Shown here one piece after another: positions 1-5,695 of a stretch of 5,695 nucleotides of DNA. Under the pieces are notes generated by a model, which saw nothing but the letters and a program-made list of their open reading frames with translations, did no database searches and was not told the DNA's origin. Location: contig JAGCUM010000099.1 of the NCBI GenBank assembly GCA_017962865.1, positions 1-5,695 on the forward strand. Direction: 5' to 3'. This DNA is from Spirochaetales bacterium. GTDB taxonomy: Bacteria > Spirochaetota > Spirochaetia > Sphaerochaetales > Sphaerochaetaceae. The number at the start of each line of letters is the position of its first letter. Within the stretch, counting starts at the first letter, position 1. A program made the position numbers and the translations under genes.

Positions 1-1
1 C

Positions 2-1216
2 ATAGCCCAGTCCGTCAGCGGCGATGTCGTTGCCGTTCCGGCCGGGGTGACAGCGGAGGATATCCGTCTTGCTGCCGATTGCGTGAAGGGTGCATCCAGA
101 TCCCATCTGATCGTGAGCCTTCCGGTTTCCACGGTCCAGATGGAATACATGTACCGCCTCAAGGCCCCCAAGATGCTCGAGCGAATCACGGAGCTTGTCA
201 GTACGGCCAGGTCCATGTGTGAGGATGTGGAATTCGAGGCCCTCGATGCCACGAGAAGCGATGTTTCCTTCCTAATTCAGGCTTGTCTTGCCGCGAAGGA
301 GAGTGGGGCGACGAGTGTTTCAATCTGCGATGATGCAGGAATCATGATGCCCGAGGAGTTCGCATCCCTGGTCAAAGCAGTCAAGGATGCCGTGAAGCTT
401 CCTCTGGCCGTGAGGGTTTCCGATTCAATCAGCCTTGCCGTTGCTGATGCCCTTGCATCGCTTCAGGCGGGAGCAGATGCAGTGAAGGCCTCCGTGACCG
501 GTGACTGTCTTACTGTCGGAAGCTTTGCTCAGGCTTTCAAGACCAAGGGCGCCCAGCTGGGTCTGGAGTCTTCCCTTCATTTCACGGAGCTCCAGTCCGA
601 TATCGAGAGCCTGCTGAAGAAGATGCAGGCCGGAAACGAGAAGGACGAAAGACCTGCCATCGTGGGGTCTGCGATCTTTTTGGATTCGGAGAGTACCATC
701 CAGCAGGTCGGAATGGCTGTCAAAAGCCTCGGCTATGATCTTTCGGAAGCCGACCTCGACAAGGTCTATAGGGTCCTGATGCATTTCTGCGAGCAGAAGT
801 CCTCCATCGGAGGCAAGGAGCTCGAGGCCATCGTGGCATCCAGTGCCATGCAGGTTCCTGCTACCTACAAGCTCAAGAATTACATCGGAACAATGTCCAA
901 CAAGGTCAACAGCGTAACCAATGTAGTGCTGGAGCGCGACGGAGAGAAAATCAGCGGAATAGGTACCGGAAACGGCCCGATAGATTCAGCTTTTGCAGCT
1001 ATAGAGCAGTGTATAGGCCATCATTATGAACTGGATGATTTCCAGATCCAGGCCGTTACGGAGGGCCGCGAGTCCCTCGGTTCCACTCTTGTACGACTTA
1101 GGAGCAACGGAAAACTCTACTCCGGAAACGGTATCTCTCCGGATATCGTCGGAGCATCGATAAGGGCCTACATCAATGCCCTGAACAAGATTGCCTACGA
1201 GGAGTCCCAGAGATGA
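2..1216 (+). CDS. LeuA-like protein (IPMS/citramalate synthase superfamily), 5'-truncated, probable pseudoenzyme
   Basis: The frame is open from base 2 with no stop, so the gene begins upstream; the GTG at 47 is an internal Val. About 404 codons are visible against roughly 510 for LeuA, so about 100 N-terminal residues are missing. Numbering from the Val at 47: residues 1-180 are the HMGL-like TIM barrel, with DVEFEALDATRSD (60-72) and SICDDAG (92-98) matching the LeuA DDVEFS.EDA and NIPDTVG stretches. Residues about 215-280 are a linker region, and about 281-385 the LeuA allosteric (dimer) domain, with GTGNGPIDSAF, AVTEGRESLG and YSGNGISPDIVGAS. LeuA enzymes condense acetyl-CoA with a 2-oxoacid using a divalent metal. 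Here the HxHDDLG motif reads RVSDSIS (R123, S125) and the GERAGN Asn is Ser159, so three of four expected metal ligands are gone; the fourth lies upstream. Catalysis is therefore doubtful, while the regulatory domain looks intact. It overlaps the next gene by ATGA, implying translational coupling. LeuA-superfamily assignment is secure; function is not. Confidence 0.85.
   Translation: MAQSVSGDVVAVPAGVTAEDIRLAADCVKGASRSHLIVSLPVSTVQMEYMYRLKAPKMLERITELVSTARSMCEDVEFEALDATRSDVSFLIQACLAAKESGATSVSICDDAGIMMPEEFASLVKAVKDAVKLPLAVRVSDSISLAVADALASLQAGADAVKASVTGDCLTVGSFAQAFKTKGAQLGLESSLHFTELQSDIESLLKKMQAGNEKDERPAIVGSAIFLDSESTIQQVGMAVKSLGYDLSEADLDKVYRVLMHFCEQKSSIGGKELEAIVASSAMQVPATYKLKNYIGTMSNKVNSVTNVVLERDGEKISGIGTGNGPIDSAFAAIEQCIGHHYELDDFQIQAVTEGRESLGSTLVRLRSNGKLYSGNGISPDIVGASIRAYINALNKIAYEESQR
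1199..1204 (+). promoter_or_regulatory. Shine-Dalgarno site for the TIM barrel-acyl-CoA synthetase gene
   Basis: GAGGAG lies inside the last codons of the LeuA-like gene, eight bases before the ATG at 1213. It supports that ATG as the start and fits coupled translation across the four-base ATGA overlap. Confidence 0.7.
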
Positions 1217-3669
1217 AGATCGCTTTCTCCACCAGGGATGTCCAGAGGCCGTCGTTCTCATCGCTCTGCCGCTTTGCCGCCGATTACGGCATGGACGGTA
1301 TCGAGATCTGGAATGCATCTGAGGAAAGGCAGAGCCATTCCGACAGCATCCTTAGAGCCGAGATGGTTTCCGAGGCAAGAAACAAGCTGCGCAACAACCG
1401 CATCGAGGTCTGTGCCCTGACTTATCCTCTTGACGTCGAGTCCGACGAGGCATCTCCGATCTCCCTTGTCCAGTATGTGGATATGGCTGCCCTTGCAGGT
1501 ATAGAGAACGTGATTGTCCATGTGAGCTCCATGCCTGACGAGCAGGCGCTTCTTGCCAAGATGAATGCGGCAATCTCGCGTGCCCAGAAACAGAACATCG
1601 GAATCCTCTTCGAGACTTCAGGTCCTCTTGCCAAGACCCAGAACCTGCTTCAGATAATCAATGTGTTCGCTTCGTCGGCCATCGGAGCTGCATGGAACAT
1701 CCGCCAGACCTTCTTCGAAGGCGATGAGAGCGCAGAGACCACCATCAAGACCCTCGGTGCCTACATCCGCTACGTGAGAATAGGCGACAGGCGAGACGGT
1801 GCGGATGTACTGATGGGTGAGGGAAGCCTTCCTGTAGATGACTTCCTCAAGGCCCTGAGGTCCCTCAACTACGAGGGTTTCTTCACCGTTGACTGGAACG
1901 ATGAGATCCGGGATGCGGACATCGTCCTGACCCACTTTGCAAACTTCATCTCCAGGGTCTCGGGGGAGGAGGCCAAGACCTCTGCACTCTATGAGAACCG
2001 CTCGGGCACGGGTACATTCCCGTGGAAGAAGTACGAGGTCATAGACGCCACCTTCGGCGATGTGCTGGACAAGATGGCGGAAACTTATCCCGATCAGTAT
2101 GCAATCAAATGCACAACCCTTGATTATACAAGGACATACAGGGAATTCAGACGTGATGTGGACCGTGTTGCGGCAGCTTTCATATCAATGGGAGTCAAGC
2201 CCGGCTACCATGTTGCCGTCTGGGCAACCAACATCCCCGCATGGTTTCTGTCCTTCTGGGCAGCCACCAAGATAGGTGCAGTCCTTGTCACTGTGAATAC
2301 CGCCTACAAGATTCATGAGGCCGAATATCTTCTGAGGCAGTCGGACACCCATACGCTTGTTATGATCGAGAGCGTCAGGGAGTCGAACTACAAGCAGATA
2401 ATCCAGGAGCTCTGTCCCGAGCTGGCAACCCACAGAAAGGGCGAGCCTCTCTTTGCAAAGAGACTGCCGTTTTTGCGCAATGTGGTTACCGTCGGTTTCG
2501 AGATGGACGGAGCCCTCTCATGGGAGCAGATGCTCGAGCGTGCAGACGATGTTCCGATGGAGGAGGTCCGCCGCAGGGCTTCGATGGTAAGACCCGATGA
2601 CGTGTGCAACATGCAGTACACCTCAGGAACCACCGGATTCCCCAAGGGCGTCATGCTTACCCACAGAAACATCATCAACAACGGAAAGACCATCGGTGAC
2701 AGGATGGACATCTCGACTGCCGACCGCATGATGATTCAGGTTCCGATGTTCCACTGCTTCGGCATGGTCCTGTCGATGACGAACCTGATGACTCACGGCG
2801 GTACGATCTGTCCGATGCCTTACTTCTCGCCCAAGTCATCGCTGGCCTGCATAAATCAGGAAAAGATAACCTGTTTCAACGGTGTACCTACAATGTTTAT
2901 AGCTATGTTCAATCATGAGGACTTCGTTCATACGGATTTCTCCTACATGAGAACAGGCATAATGGCCGGTTCGAACTGTCCTCCCGACCTTATGAGAAGG
3001 GCAGCCATCGAGATGAACATGACCGAAATCCTATCCGTCTACGGACAGACCGAGAGCTCGCCCGGGTGCACCATGGGAGAGGTCAACGAGGACCTCGATC
3101 ATAGGGTTGAGACCGTCGGTTCGGCCTTCCCGGGAATCGAGTGCAAGATCATCGATCCCGAGACCGGAAAGGATCTCCCCGACGGCGAGAACGGTGAATT
3201 CGTCGCACGCGGCTTCAATATCATGAAAGGTTATTACAAGATGCCCGAGGCCACTGCCAAGACCATCGATGCCGACGGATGGCTCCATACCGGAGATATC
3301 TGCTGCCGCACCAGCGACGGCTACTACAAGGTAACCGGCCGTCTGAAGGACATGATCATCCGCGGAGGAGAGAACATCTATCCGAGGGAGATCGAGGAGT
3401 TCTACCTCACGAATCCCAAGGTCCGCGATGTTCAGGTCGTGGGAGTGAAGGACAAGGTCTACGGAGAGGAGGCCTGCGCCTGGGTCGTGCTTCATGAGGG
3501 TCAGAGTGCGGACGAGGCGGAGATGAAGGACTACGGCTACAAGTCCATGGCAAGGCATAAGGTGCCCAGGTACTTCATGTTCGTGGATACCTTCCCGATG
3601 AATGCCGCCGGAAAGATTCTCAAATACAGGATGAAGGAAGAGTCGGAGAAGATTCTGAATCTTGTCTGA
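1213..3669 (+). CDS. Fusion of xylose-isomerase-like TIM barrel with ACSF2-type acyl-CoA synthetase
   Basis: 818 residues. Residues 1-250 form a sugar-phosphate isomerase/epimerase-like (AP endonuclease 2 superfamily) barrel: GMDGIEIWN (26-34), ILFETSG (131-137), LGAYIRYVRIGD (181-192), MGEGSLPVDDFL (201-212). Usual metal ligands look changed: the family's WDxxH is WNIRQ (N162, Q165), HVHxKD is YVRIGD (R189) and the final Glu is Asp227; only Glu134 remains. Residues about 270-818 are a full-length AMP-forming acyl-CoA synthetase, which makes an acyl-adenylate and then the CoA thioester. Its motifs are P-loop YTSGTTGFPKG (469-479), YGQTE (610-614), the adenosine-binding TGD (693-695), hinge GRLKD (709-713), GGENIYP (718-724) and catalytic Lys801 in NAAGK. 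The text between motifs (VPMFHCFG, FNGVPTMF, IMAGSNCPP) resembles ACSF2-type medium-chain ligases. The enzyme half appears fully active; the substrate is unknown. The protein should be cytosolic, as no signal peptide or membrane segment is seen. ATG start is supported by GAGGAG at 1199 and by overlap with the LeuA-like gene. Confidence 0.93.
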   Translation: MKIAFSTRDVQRPSFSSLCRFAADYGMDGIEIWNASEERQSHSDSILRAEMVSEARNKLRNNRIEVCALTYPLDVESDEASPISLVQYVDMAALAGIENVIVHVSSMPDEQALLAKMNAAISRAQKQNIGILFETSGPLAKTQNLLQIINVFASSAIGAAWNIRQTFFEGDESAETTIKTLGAYIRYVRIGDRRDGADVLMGEGSLPVDDFLKALRSLNYEGFFTVDWNDEIRDADIVLTHFANFISRVSGEEAKTSALYENRSGTGTFPWKKYEVIDATFGDVLDKMAETYPDQYAIKCTTLDYTRTYREFRRDVDRVAAAFISMGVKPGYHVAVWATNIPAWFLSFWAATKIGAVLVTVNTAYKIHEAEYLLRQSDTHTLVMIESVRESNYKQIIQELCPELATHRKGEPLFAKRLPFLRNVVTVGFEMDGALSWEQMLERADDVPMEEVRRRASMVRPDDVCNMQYTSGTTGFPKGVMLTHRNIINNGKTIGDRMDISTADRMMIQVPMFHCFGMVLSMTNLMTHGGTICPMPYFSPKSSLACINQEKITCFNGVPTMFIAMFNHEDFVHTDFSYMRTGIMAGSNCPPDLMRRAAIEMNMTEILSVYGQTESSPGCTMGEVNEDLDHRVETVGSAFPGIECKIIDPETGKDLPDGENGEFVARGFNIMKGYYKMPEATAKTIDADGWLHTGDICCRTSDGYYKVTGRLKDMIIRGGENIYPREIEEFYLTNPKVRDVQVVGVKDKVYGEEACAWVVLHEGQSADEAEMKDYGYKSMARHKVPRYFMFVDTFPMNAAGKILKYRMKEESEKILNLV

Positions 3670-3686
3670 CACTTGAGTCGTTTCTG

Positions 3687-3715
3687 TTGACAAAAACACC
3701 CTAAAGTGGTAGAAA
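3687..3715 (+). promoter_or_regulatory. Sigma70/sigmaA-type promoter of the T-box-controlled gene
   Basis: A perfect -35 TTGACA (3687-3692) is followed, after a 17-base spacer, by TAGAAA (3710-3715), which matches four of six bases of the -10 consensus. Transcription would start near 3721-3724, just before T-box stem I, which is where a leader promoter is expected. It lies 18 bases past the stop of the preceding gene, so the third gene has its own transcription start. No convincing intrinsic terminator separates it from gene 2, so read-through into the leader is also possible. Confidence 0.72.
3700..3710 (+). repeat. 11-base direct repeat, copy 1 (promoter spacer)
   Basis: CCTAAAGTGGT sits in the -35/-10 spacer and ends on the first base of the -10. 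An identical copy lies at 3892-3902 in the T-box leader. It may be chance, or a remnant of leader duplication; no function is assigned. Confidence 0.4.
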
Positions 3716-3805
3716 AAGCGCAATAGCGTTGACGAAGACGGTTCAGGAAGATAGCATCAGCGAGCTGGGTACGGTGAGAGCCAGTTGCGAAGGGCCTGAA
3801 AACCT

Positions 3806-3808
3806 ATC
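3806..3808 (+). promoter_or_regulatory. T-box specifier codon AUC (isoleucine)
   Basis: ATC is followed by one A (3809) and then by the CTTCC strand of the basal stem I helix. This is the usual T-box geometry of codon, purine, helix, leading to CCGAGCTG. The antiterminator bulge reads TGGT, which would pair with a tRNA ending in ACCA, consistent with the discriminator A of tRNA-Ile. Tyr, Leu and Val tRNAs also commonly carry A there, so the bulge alone is not decisive. The main alternative is CTA (Leu) two bases earlier, which breaks the spacing. Confidence 0.68.
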
Positions 3809-3891
3809 ACTTCCGAGCTGGGGGAAGGAAAACCGGACGGTGAGTAATGTCCTCCCGAGTCTGCCGCGTAAGGGCATAGGGCTTGTTGGAG

Positions 3892-3902
3892 CCTAAAGTG
3901 GT
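3892..3902 (+). repeat. 11-base direct repeat, copy 2 (T-box leader)
   Basis: CCTAAAGTGGT is identical to 3700-3710. Here it runs into the stem III hairpin just before the T-box sequence. Part of it (AGTGGT) recurs at 3921-3926 in the T-box itself, so shared leader motifs may explain the resemblance. Confidence 0.4.
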
Positions 3903-3916
3903 GCAGGATTGCACAA

Positions 3917-3971
3917 TTTGAGTGGTACCGCGGGTATCATGTTCATGAAATGGATATGTGCTCGTCTCAAA
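3917..3971 (+). promoter_or_regulatory. T-box antiterminator
   Basis: Helix A1 is formed by TTTGAG (3917-3922) with CTCAAA (3966-3971). The seven-base bulge TGGTACC (3923-3929) carries the UGGN that binds the tRNA acceptor end. Helix A2 pairs GCGGG (3930-3934) with CTCGT (3961-3965), using two G-U pairs. The 3' strands of both helices are the same bases that form the 5' arm of the terminator, so the two structures exclude one another. This is the expected on/off switch. Confidence 0.88.
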
Positions 3972-4004
3972 GAACTGATGAAGTCTTTGGGACGAGCTTT
4001 TTTT
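3960..4004 (+). terminator. Intrinsic terminator of the T-box leader
   Basis: A 14-base-pair stem pairs GCTCGTCTCAAAGA (3960-3973) with TCTTTGGGACGAGC (3984-3997), with a single G-U pair and a ten-base loop, followed by seven T residues (3998-4004). It forms by default when charged tRNA is abundant and would stop transcription 25 bases before the GTG start. Confidence 0.95.
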
Positions 4005-4018
4005 GTTTCTGAAGGCGG

Positions 4019-4026
4019 AAGGAGGA
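4019..4026 (+). promoter_or_regulatory. Shine-Dalgarno site fixing a GTG start
   Basis: AAGGAGGA is an almost perfect anti-SD match. Only four bases separate GGAGG from the GTG at 4030, a little tight. The next in-frame ATG (4081) would remove the first helix of the HTH, so GTG is preferred. Confidence 0.75.
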
Positions 4027-4029
4027 ATT

Positions 4030-5695
4030 GTGGACACCACGAAATCGCAGCTTCTGGAAGTTGCCTCCCGTATCAGGGAAATGCGCGAGATCCTGGGTTA
4101 TTCCCAGAACACCATGGCGCAGCGCACGAATCTCAGCCTTGCAGAGTACAAGGCCTATGAGAGCGGGGAGACGGACCTTCCGTTCTCCTTCATACACAAG
4201 TGCGCCCTTGCATTCAACATCGATATCACCGACCTTCTGGAAGGACATTCGACCAGACTGACTTCCTACACGGTCACAAGGCGCGGTCACGGTCAGCAGA
4301 CGGCCAAGGAGATGGGAATCGACATCCAGAACCTGGCTCCCAAGTTCAAGAACAAGATCGCCGAGCCTTACTGGGTCAAATACGACTACTCCGAGGAGCT
4401 CCAGAGCAAGCCGATTCAGCTTGCCACGCATGCCGGACAGGAGTTCGACATCGTCATAAGCGGTTCTCTTCTGGTTCAGGTCGGAACCAACAAGGAAGTC
4501 CTCCACGAGGGCGATTGTATCTACTACAACTCATCCACACCCCACGGAATGATAGCCATAGACGGCAAGGACTGTCTGTTCGTGGCAGTTGTTCTTCCCG
4601 GAGAGGATGAGACCGTCGATGCCGGAACCAACCTCATGGCCAGTATGGCCGTTCCTTCCTCGCTGAAGCTTCTTGCAAACAAGTTCGCAGACTGCAAGGA
4701 GAACGCGAAGGGCAGCCTGGTGGATGTGTCGTTCAAGAATGCCGAGAAGTTCAACTTCGGCTACGACATCGTCGATGCCCTTGCAGAAAAATATCCTGAG
4801 AAGCTTGCCATGATCCATCTGGACAAGGAGAAGAACGAGAGACGCTTCACGTTCATGGACATCAAGCGTGAGAGCGCAAGAGTTGCCAATTACTTCGTGT
4901 CCATGGGAATAGGCAAGGGCGACAAGGTCATGCTGGTGCTCAAGAGGCACTATCAGTTCTGGCCTGCCATGGTGGCACTCCACAAGATCGGAGCCATCGC
5001 CATTCCGGCAACGTATCAGCTTCGCGAGCACGATTTCGAATACCGTTTCAATGCCGCAGGCGTGAAGGCCATCGTCTGTACTGCCGACGGCGACTGTGCA
5101 CAGATAGTGGACAAGGTCCAGCCGCAGTGTCCCACTCTGACTCTGAAGATGTTAGTGGGCGGACAGAGAGAGGGCTGGAGGGACTTCAACAAGGAGTATC
5201 CGATGTTCAAGAGCTCCTTCAGGCGCACGGCCGAAACCCCATGCGGCGATGAGCCTGCTCTGATGTTCTTCTCATCGGGTACCACGGGCAATCCCAAGAT
5301 GGTGGAGCACAAGCACACCTATGCCCTGGGACACTTCCTTACTGCAAAATATTGGCACTGTTGTGAGCCTGACGGCCTTCATTTCACCATTTCCGACACC
5401 GGATGGGGAAAGAGCCTCTGGGGCAAACTGTACGGCCAGTGGATGTGCGAGGGAGCGGTTTTCGTCTACGATTTCGACCGCTTCCACGCGGATGATATCC
5501 TGCCGATGTTCGCCAAGTACCATATCACGACCTTCTGCGCACCGCCCACGATGCTCAGGATGATGATCAAGGAAGACCTGTCCAAGTACGATTTCTCCTC
5601 CGTGCGTCACATGACAACCGCAGGAGTGGCCCTGAACCCGGAGGTTGCAATGCAGTTCTACAAGGCAACCGGTCTGGAGATCTGCGAGGGCTTCG
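4030..5695 (+). CDS. XRE helix-turn-helix / cupin / medium-chain acyl-CoA synthetase fusion, 3'-truncated
   Basis: 555 codons are open to the window edge; perhaps 200 C-terminal residues are missing. Residues about 8-72 are an XRE-type HTH (SRIREMREILGYSQNTMAQ at 13-31, then YKAYESGETDLP). Residues about 125-190 are a cupin with HAGQEFDIVISG (134-145) and GDCIYYNSSTPHG (161-173); the first motif keeps one His, so metal binding is uncertain. From about 240 on is an AMP-forming acyl-CoA synthetase with P-loop SSGTTGNPK (415-423), ISDTGWGKSLWGKLYGQW (454-471), FCAPPTM (502-508) and CEGF at the edge, where GQTE should follow. The long matching stretches recall the medium-chain synthetase of Methanosarcina acetivorans, reported to favour 2-methylbutyrate; this comparison is from memory. 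The likely role is activation of a short or branched acid to its CoA ester in the cytosol, possibly with DNA-binding feedback. The gene is controlled by its own promoter and an Ile-type T-box. The domain order is clear; the substrate is inferred. The missing C-terminus should hold the TGD motif and catalytic Lys. Confidence 0.92.
   Translation, partial: MDTTKSQLLEVASRIREMREILGYSQNTMAQRTNLSLAEYKAYESGETDLPFSFIHKCALAFNIDITDLLEGHSTRLTSYTVTRRGHGQQTAKEMGIDIQNLAPKFKNKIAEPYWVKYDYSEELQSKPIQLATHAGQEFDIVISGSLLVQVGTNKEVLHEGDCIYYNSSTPHGMIAIDGKDCLFVAVVLPGEDETVDAGTNLMASMAVPSSLKLLANKFADCKENAKGSLVDVSFKNAEKFNFGYDIVDALAEKYPEKLAMIHLDKEKNERRFTFMDIKRESARVANYFVSMGIGKGDKVMLVLKRHYQFWPAMVALHKIGAIAIPATYQLREHDFEYRFNAAGVKAIVCTADGDCAQIVDKVQPQCPTLTLKMLVGGQREGWRDFNKEYPMFKSSFRRTAETPCGDEPALMFFSSGTTGNPKMVEHKHTYALGHFLTAKYWHCCEPDGLHFTISDTGWGKSLWGKLYGQWMCEGAVFVYDFDRFHADDILPMFAKYHITTFCAPPTMLRMMIKEDLSKYDFSSVRHMTTAGVALNPEVAMQFYKATGLEICEGF

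Follow-up and report, generated by a model that had tools for sequence, protein, structure and literature searches.

Why should an RNA switch that reads tRNA-Ile stand in front of a gene for an acid:CoA ligase? The question is raised by a stretch of 5,695 nucleotides from a Spirochaetales bacterium (GenBank assembly GCA_017962865.1, contig JAGCUM010000099.1, positions 1 to 5,695, forward strand; the whole stretch is called the window below), in which a T-box leader precedes a gene that joins a helix-turn-helix (HTH) domain, a cupin domain and an AMP-forming acid:CoA ligase. Comparison of this locus with its relatives leads us to think that the leader is very probably a tRNA-Ile T-box that switches on an operon leading from 2-methylbutyrate through 2-methylbutyryl-CoA and 3-methyl-2-oxovalerate to isoleucine, and that valine and leucine systems are built alike. 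In rumen spirochaetes and many gut clostridia, a switch responding to isoleucine shortage appears to turn on the rebuilding of isoleucine from their neighbours' 2-methylbutyrate.

The T-box leader and its specifier

The Rfam T-box model (RF00230; cmscan of 3600-4100) matches the forward strand at 3720-3972 over its full length (1-219 of 219), with 62.6 bits and an E-value of 2.5e-13. A preliminary description of this DNA had proposed a leader starting at 3722, within two bases of the start found here, and stem I, specifier, antiterminator and terminator are all present as it had claimed. The parts are as follows.

3720-3972, forward strand: T-box leader matched by RF00230 with cmscan; the whole leader through the terminator spans 3720-4004
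3734-3737, forward strand: 5' strand of the stem I basal helix (GAAG), pairing with 3810-3813; all 39 aligned leaders have standard pairs here
3759-3780, forward strand: distal stem I with AGCGA bulge and GGUGAGAG apical loop, conserved in the 39-leader alignment
3806-3808, forward strand: specifier AUC (Ile), placed by covariance alignment; AUC in 75 of the 79 readable Ile-clade leaders, window included
3810-3813, forward strand: 3' strand of the stem I basal helix (CUUC), partner of 3734-3737
3917-3971, forward strand: antiterminator, 3917-3935 with 3960-3971; -19.0 kcal/mol folded alone, with consensus pairs in the alignment
3920-3932, forward strand: T-box sequence GAGUGGUACCGCG, with the UGGU bulge at 3923-3926 complementary to the ACCA of a tRNA with discriminator A
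3960-4004, forward strand: intrinsic terminator, a hairpin of 14 pairs (3960-3997) plus U7; -24.4 kcal/mol

The antiterminator and the terminator are mutually exclusive, as both use the 12 bases at 3960-3971. By analogy, we take the bulge and apical loop of distal stem I to be the contact with the tRNA elbow. The 298-nt leader is more stable than its dinucleotide shuffles, 1 of 200 of which reached its level (z -2.82). A consensus terminator scan did not list the terminator of the window, probably because its loop of 10 nt exceeds the scan maximum of 8.

In the covariance-model alignment a single base separates AUC from the CUUC strand of the basal helix that follows it. This is the first-choice register of TBDB, which the available text of PMC7778990 gives as the second to fourth bases from the end of the bulge that holds the specifier. 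The same register gives GUA or GUC in leaders of a paralogous ligase described below. Shifting the frame by one base produces UCN in the AUC leaders, where the base 3' of AUC varies among A, C and G, and UAG, UAA or UCG in the paralogue, so that only the unshifted frame gives sense throughout. Serine, the amino acid of the UCN frame, was rejected because the paralogue's shifted frame reads stops or mixed codons. The isoleucine assignment of the preliminary description is therefore upheld, its codon being correctly placed and no unrelated codon occupying the specifier position. A tRNA-Ile(GAU) with discriminator A73, read from the ARAGORN span, is found in G001, which is the genome of the nearest locus (L001) and not the window's own, and the UGGU bulge fits this A73. 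Among the 11 spirochaete genomes a tRNA-Ile was recovered by pattern in G001 only; whatever else the pattern matched were tRNAs of other anticodons.

Conservation of the leader

Of 170 relatives of the locus found by a genome-contig scan, 80 were kept. They belong to rumen and gut Spirochaetales (L001-L009 and L011, 77-94% identical; L016, 71%) and to Clostridia (62-72%), and the nearest named ones are rumen Spirochaetales. A T-box core lies upstream of the ligase in 76 of these 80, as well as in the window; L011, one of the other four, has no upstream sequence. The core is also upstream in all 20 loci from the top-scoring genomes of a class-wide search (L117-L136, of which 19 are new and L117 is the same as L028). 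Homologues thus keep the T-box, the point on which the preliminary description had proposed that its claim be checked. Among 39 aligned leaders the specifier is AUC in 38 and GUC in one. Of the 36 consensus pairs, 17 show compensatory changes, and the helix above the specifier loop holds many of these. The conserved specifier loop is compact, with AC on its 5' side and Y-AUC-N on its 3' side. Just one T-box match was obtained in each of G002-G005, four of the 11 spirochaete genomes that were searched.

The operon downstream

The window ends inside the ligase, before any genes that might follow, and these are seen in its relatives. In L007 the genes after the ligase encode, in order, a CN_hydrolase, a branched-chain aminotransferase (ilvE_II, 365 bits against a cut-off of 250), a P-loop ATPase, VorB (554 bits against a cut-off of 399) and the beta and gamma subunits, and this one locus therefore unites the ligase, the alpha, beta and gamma subunits of 2-oxoisovalerate:ferredoxin oxidoreductase (Vor) and a branched-chain amino acid aminotransferase. 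L001 shares this order and has, directly before VorB, a 68-residue protein with two four-cysteine motifs (a two-cluster ferredoxin). A tblastn count, restricted to loci of sufficient length, places VorB downstream in 38 of 51, the aminotransferase in 36 of 61 and either of them in 41 of 51; the ATPase is found in 41 of 54, and the beta and gamma subunits in 25 and 21 of 50, counts lowered because contigs end. CN_hydrolase, considered as a core part of the pathway, was rejected, being present in only 19 of 73 loci. In L007 it (8283-9080) and the ATPase, which is CbiA/ParA-like (10167-10853), sit between the ligase and VorB.

Two ligases, two specifiers

In many clostridial loci another HTH-cupin-ligase lies about 2.5 kb further downstream, behind a leader that reads GUA or GUC (Val), and in spirochaete genomes G006, G007 and G011 a GUC leader precedes a second HTH-cupin-ligase in a separate place. 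Eight Val leaders (L048, L049, L056, L063, L065, L066, L069 and L080) were read by eye, as they were not matched by the specifier patterns. The second leader of L079 (about 7570-7830), whose helix differs and whose specifier is ambiguous between CUG and GAA, was left out of the counts.

The following features of the window's ligase bear on its identity.

4030-5695, forward strand: HTH-cupin-AMP-forming acid:CoA ligase gene, with a GTG start, truncated by the end of the window
5353-5355, forward strand: Trp442 (KYW), aligned to Trp259 of MacsMa with a one-residue numbering offset assumed
5407-5409, forward strand: Gly460 (DTGW-G-K), the residue separating Ile-linked (Gly) from Val-linked (Ala) ligases

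A tree of 109 ligase rows, window included (quick search with the Shimodaira-Hasegawa-like approximate likelihood ratio test, SH-aLRT, no bootstrap, and a midpoint root only), splits the two ligases into clades with SH-aLRT support of 100. The Ile clade has 81 rows, of which 75 are labelled AUC, one GUC and five are unlabelled; the AUC denominator is 79 because two of these five, L011 and L024, have no readable sequence. The Val clade has 28 rows, four of them leaderless, and GUA or GUC stands in all 24 of its leaders that have a T-box. Specifier labels change 10 times on the tree, against 31.3 when shuffled (0 of 200 shuffles as low). Leaders of homologues, which the preliminary description had suggested searching for Ile, Leu or Val codons, accordingly read AUC and GUA or GUC by clade, and CUC in the operon described below. 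The 12 spirochaete rows, window included, are nested among Bacillota rows (support 96; midpoint root), which suggests that the ligase moved into spirochaetes from Bacillota together with its T-box.

Residue 460 is Gly in 81 of 81 Ile-clade and Ala in 28 of 28 Val-clade ligases, the sole full separator in the catalytic domain; residue 419 (Thr/Ser) separates the clades in part. The rule extends beyond the first set of loci, with Gly beside AUC in 8 of 8 and Ala beside GUA or GUC in 14 of 14, three genes being too short. Because the clades split once, however, this may be one event and not many. The equivalent residue is Gly in MacsMa and Ala in the 4-hydroxybutyrate ligase 8biq. It follows GW, the motif that lines the acyl pocket in acetyl-CoA synthetase; its probable place in the pocket is taken from the 3ETC alignment and from the pocket residues of acetyl-CoA synthetase, and Ala460 might then give a smaller pocket for isobutyrate. 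Residues 18-199 (4081-4626), in or near the HTH-cupin part, hold nine of the ten clade-separating positions at the strict threshold.

The closest solved relative, 3ETC, scores 657 bits against 354 for the next (the query was P0001, 96% identical to the window protein). This is MacsMa, which prefers 2-methylbutyrate and in which Trp259 is critical, according to the available text of PMC10455477. The aligned acyl-pocket Trp is invariant across all 109 rows (81 of 81 and 28 of 28). Domains of the window's gene are HTH_19, Cupin_2 and AMP-binding, and its close relatives are about 755 residues long. Its best NCBIfam match is MbcS, at 175.4 bits (query cut at 555 residues); we do not file it as MbcS because this is well under the cut-off of 850. 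More distant relatives (about 40-44% identical; for example in G130, G133, G245 and G101) match both parts across an internal stop codon, and in relatives of this type the HTH-cupin and the ligase may be separate neighbouring genes.

A third specifier belongs to another operon, which pairs a LeuA-like gene with a TIM-barrel/ligase fusion. Its leader reads CUC (Leu), in 16 of 17 cases by pattern and in L065 by eye. In the 400 nt 5' of the LeuA pair no T-box was seen in spirochaete loci L001, L002, L004 and L007, nor in L037. One CUC (Leu) T-box, at about 10264 in L034, stands before a gene other than LeuA. In spirochaete loci L098, L099 and L114 (G008-G010) thrS is preceded by a T-box whose specifier, read by eye, is ACC (Thr), which gives the phylum a second kind of T-box.

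The acetolactate pathway in host genomes

We compared 30 carrier genomes, including 11 spirochaetes, with 14 controls; absences are scored in metagenome-assembled genomes (MAGs) of unstated completeness. IlvC was found in 3 of 30 carriers, IlvD in 6 and IlvB above cut-off in 3, against 14 of 14 controls for each, and none of the three was found in the 11 spirochaete carriers, 9 of which have VorB above cut-off. Among 246 genomes of the class, the fusion and IlvC tend to avoid one another: 139 have IlvC, 53 the fusion and 14 both (odds ratio 0.195, p 7.6e-7 by Fisher's test, which ignores kinship). Of the 34 closest fusions, two are accompanied by IlvC.

A proposed mechanism and its alternatives

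These observations can be joined as follows. When isoleucine is short, uncharged tRNA-Ile(GAU) would bind the leader, the anticodon pairing to AUC and the ACCA end to UGGU, which would stabilise the antiterminator and let RNA polymerase read into the operon, as in a transcriptional T-box. The ligase would activate 2-methylbutyrate taken up from the rumen, Vor would reductively carboxylate the resulting 2-methylbutyryl-CoA with CO2 and reduced ferredoxin to 3-methyl-2-oxovalerate, and the branched-chain aminotransferase would convert this to isoleucine. The second ligase, under its Val T-box, could lead from isobutyrate to valine, and the LeuA-ligase operon, under its Leu T-box, could follow the same logic. 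The HTH-cupin part may add control at the level of DNA. The window's own genome presumably carries a like operon beyond the end of the window. What the sequences themselves show is the build of the leader, the specifiers and their conservation, the order of genes in relatives and the lack of IlvC or IlvD matches in most of the carriers searched; from this comparison we infer the substrate of the ligase, the direction of flux and the switching of the RNA.

A wider reading is also probable, if held less firmly than the isoleucine switch itself: that a three-codon RNA code (AUC for a 2-methylbutyrate ligase and GUA or GUC for an isobutyrate ligase, the two split by Gly/Ala460, and CUC for the LeuA-ligase operon) assigns the branched acid:CoA ligases to their amino acids; that this system, drawing on one common Vor and aminotransferase, takes the place of the acetolactate pathway in a large group of gut anaerobes and makes them dependent on acids that neighbours excrete; and that the unit moved with its T-boxes from Bacillota to rumen spirochaetes.

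The preliminary description had considered the target unusual for a T-box. The acid:CoA ligase and its route are indeed unusual, but the T-box itself would do its normal job, because this ligase apparently catalyses the opening step of an operon for amino acid biosynthesis. Nor is the enzyme otherwise unassigned, as had been said, since it can be placed from its VorB and aminotransferase context, from the specifiers and from 3ETC; specifier and clade agree in all but one leader.

Several observations weigh against the isoleucine switch or the loss of the acetolactate route. The leader lies below the Rfam gathering score of 93, which is a reporting threshold and not a structural feature, and for this reason a default Rfam scan of the whole window lists nothing. 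The same model matches in 5 of 14 control genomes, over the cut-off in only 2 and below it in the other 3, while 13 of 30 carriers have no T-box match above it; because controls exceed the cut-off in just 2 of 14, a sub-threshold score alone is no ground for doubt. The AGUA/GAA loop E, typical of T-box specifier loops as a common and not a defining feature, is not present, and the consensus 5' side in the 39 leaders is A-C-G-G. Loci L032, L071 and L075 lack leaders of their own, and L046 reads GUC before an Ile-clade ligase; it heads a pair whose Val-clade partner has no leader of its own. VorB was not seen downstream in 13 of 51 loci, and neither VorB nor the aminotransferase in 10 of 51. In the host genomes, IlvB, IlvC and IlvD are all present in 3 of 30 carriers (G026, G027 and G030), some match to the IlvB model occurs in 24 of 30 (21 of them below cut-off), and IlvC is present in 14 of the 53 fusion-bearing genomes of the class. 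VorB-like matches occur in 10 of the 14 controls as well, 3 of them exceeding the cut-off, and the presence of Vor is therefore not specific by itself. Finally, the fusion limit of E < 1e-160 was chosen after the search, the association takes no account of kinship, and the absences come from MAGs.

Could the ligase mainly prime branched-chain fatty acid synthesis, isoleucine shortage being a proxy for missing 2-methylbutyryl-CoA? MbcS, its best if distant NCBIfam match, activates 2-methylbutyrate and isobutyrate for just this purpose, as the available text of PMC10026030 states. However, the conserved neighbours examined are Vor and the aminotransferase and include no fatty acid genes, separate Val and Leu T-boxes match the amino acids individually, and IlvC and IlvD were not found in most carriers searched; we consider this explanation improbable. 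Less probable still, and in our judgement very unlikely, is a catabolic direction, in which isoleucine would be deaminated and oxidised to 2-methylbutyrate with energy gained by reversal of the ligase. Ligase, Vor and aminotransferase are all reversible in principle, and Vor serves in amino acid fermentation, but a T-box antiterminator before a terminator switches genes on when isoleucine is scarce, and IlvC was not found in most hosts searched. That the leader reads another tRNA (Ser, in the shifted UCN frame that the variable base 3' of AUC permits) or is a decayed, non-functional relic carried by transfer, as its score under the gathering threshold might hint, we regard as scarcely credible, given that the paralogue makes sense only as Val codons in the unshifted frame, that UGGU fits A73 of tRNA-Ile and that compensatory changes run throughout stem I.

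If the isoleucine switch operates as proposed, it would help to account for the synthesis of branched-chain amino acids in gut anaerobes that lack IlvC, and would bear on branched-acid feed supplements. The specifier codons suggest the amino acid that each ligase serves, and in this way a T-box specifier can serve to annotate the substrate of an enzyme.

Remaining features of the window

The other features of the window lie around the leader.

2-1216, forward strand: LeuA-like gene (HMGL-like and LeuA_dimer), its 5' end outside the window; a conserved neighbour, preceded in clostridia by a CUC T-box of its own
1213-3669, forward strand: xylose-isomerase-like TIM barrel fused to an acyl-CoA ligase, a conserved neighbour
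3687-3715, forward strand: promoter-like TTGACA-17 nt-TAGAAA immediately 5' of the leader, read by eye and offered as a suggestion only
4019-4025, forward strand: Shine-Dalgarno sequence AAGGAGG, read from the sequence

The promoter-like element was missed by a consensus scan because the scan rule needs a T ending the second hexamer. The pairing of a LeuA-like enzyme with a TIM-barrel/acyl-CoA ligase fusion (2-3669) also occurs in L010, L012, L021 and others, and matches of isopropylmalate synthase models to the LeuA-like enzyme are far under cut-off.

Comparison with known systems

T-boxes are well known, and the rumen branched-acid routes have been known biochemically since the 1960s, for more than 50 years; what may be new, as far as the literature found goes, is the regulon and the spirochaete T-box. 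No literature was found that joins a T-box with 2-methylbutyrate and isoleucine, or with a ferredoxin oxidoreductase, branched-chain compounds and a specifier, in a search whose coverage left out most subscription journals. The available portions of PMC2494555, PMC10319736, PMC8632094, PMC7778990, PMC3766115, PMC10658910, PMC8163506 and PMC2700814 do not describe the regulon or a spirochaete T-box, and an earlier mention elsewhere is possible. In Table 3 of a 2008 survey the T-box count for 6 Spirochaetes genomes is 0 (PMC2494555, in the part available), and the accessible text of a 2013 survey limits T-boxes to Firmicutes, Actinobacteria, Chloroflexi and Thermus/Deinococcus, plus Geobacter (PMC3766115). 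Spirochaetes would now join the phyla with T-boxes.

The window leader resembles known T-boxes (RF00230; TBDB) in its stem I with specifier, AG bulge and apical loop, its UGGU and its antiterminator exclusive with a terminator. It differs from the typical case in a compact specifier loop without AGUA/GAA, in its target, an acid:CoA ligase/Vor operon, and in its spirochaete host. The Leu T-box before leuA in Geobacter (PMC2494555, PMC2700814) is like the CUC leader before the LeuA-like gene here, although the available text on that system, unlike what we see here, mentions no fused ligase or branched-acid route.

The nearest biochemical parallel is in the rumen, where carboxylation leads from isovalerate to Leu, from 2-methylbutyrate to Ile and from isobutyrate to Val (PMC7356843, whose available text credits Allison-Robinson 1966, Robinson and Allison 1969, and Allison and Peel 1971). 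Chemistry and habitat are the same; those routes were described biochemically, whereas here genes and amino-acid-specific RNA control are proposed. In Methanobrevibacter ruminantium, reductive carboxylation to isoleucine was likewise inferred (PMC2812497), and methanogens use 2-methylbutyrate and isovalerate for Ile and Leu (PMC10658910), but these are Archaea, and RNA control is not mentioned in the accessible parts of either paper. MbcS, the methylbutyryl-CoA synthetase of Staphylococcus aureus, resembles the window ligase in activating 2-methylbutyrate and isobutyrate and differs in feeding fatty acid synthesis (PMC10026030, available text). MacsMa, the medium-chain acyl-CoA synthetase of Methanosarcina acetivorans (3ETC), shares the critical Trp and the GWGK motif with the window ligase; it is archaeal and lacks the HTH-cupin part, its solved chain aligning only from ligase residue 238.

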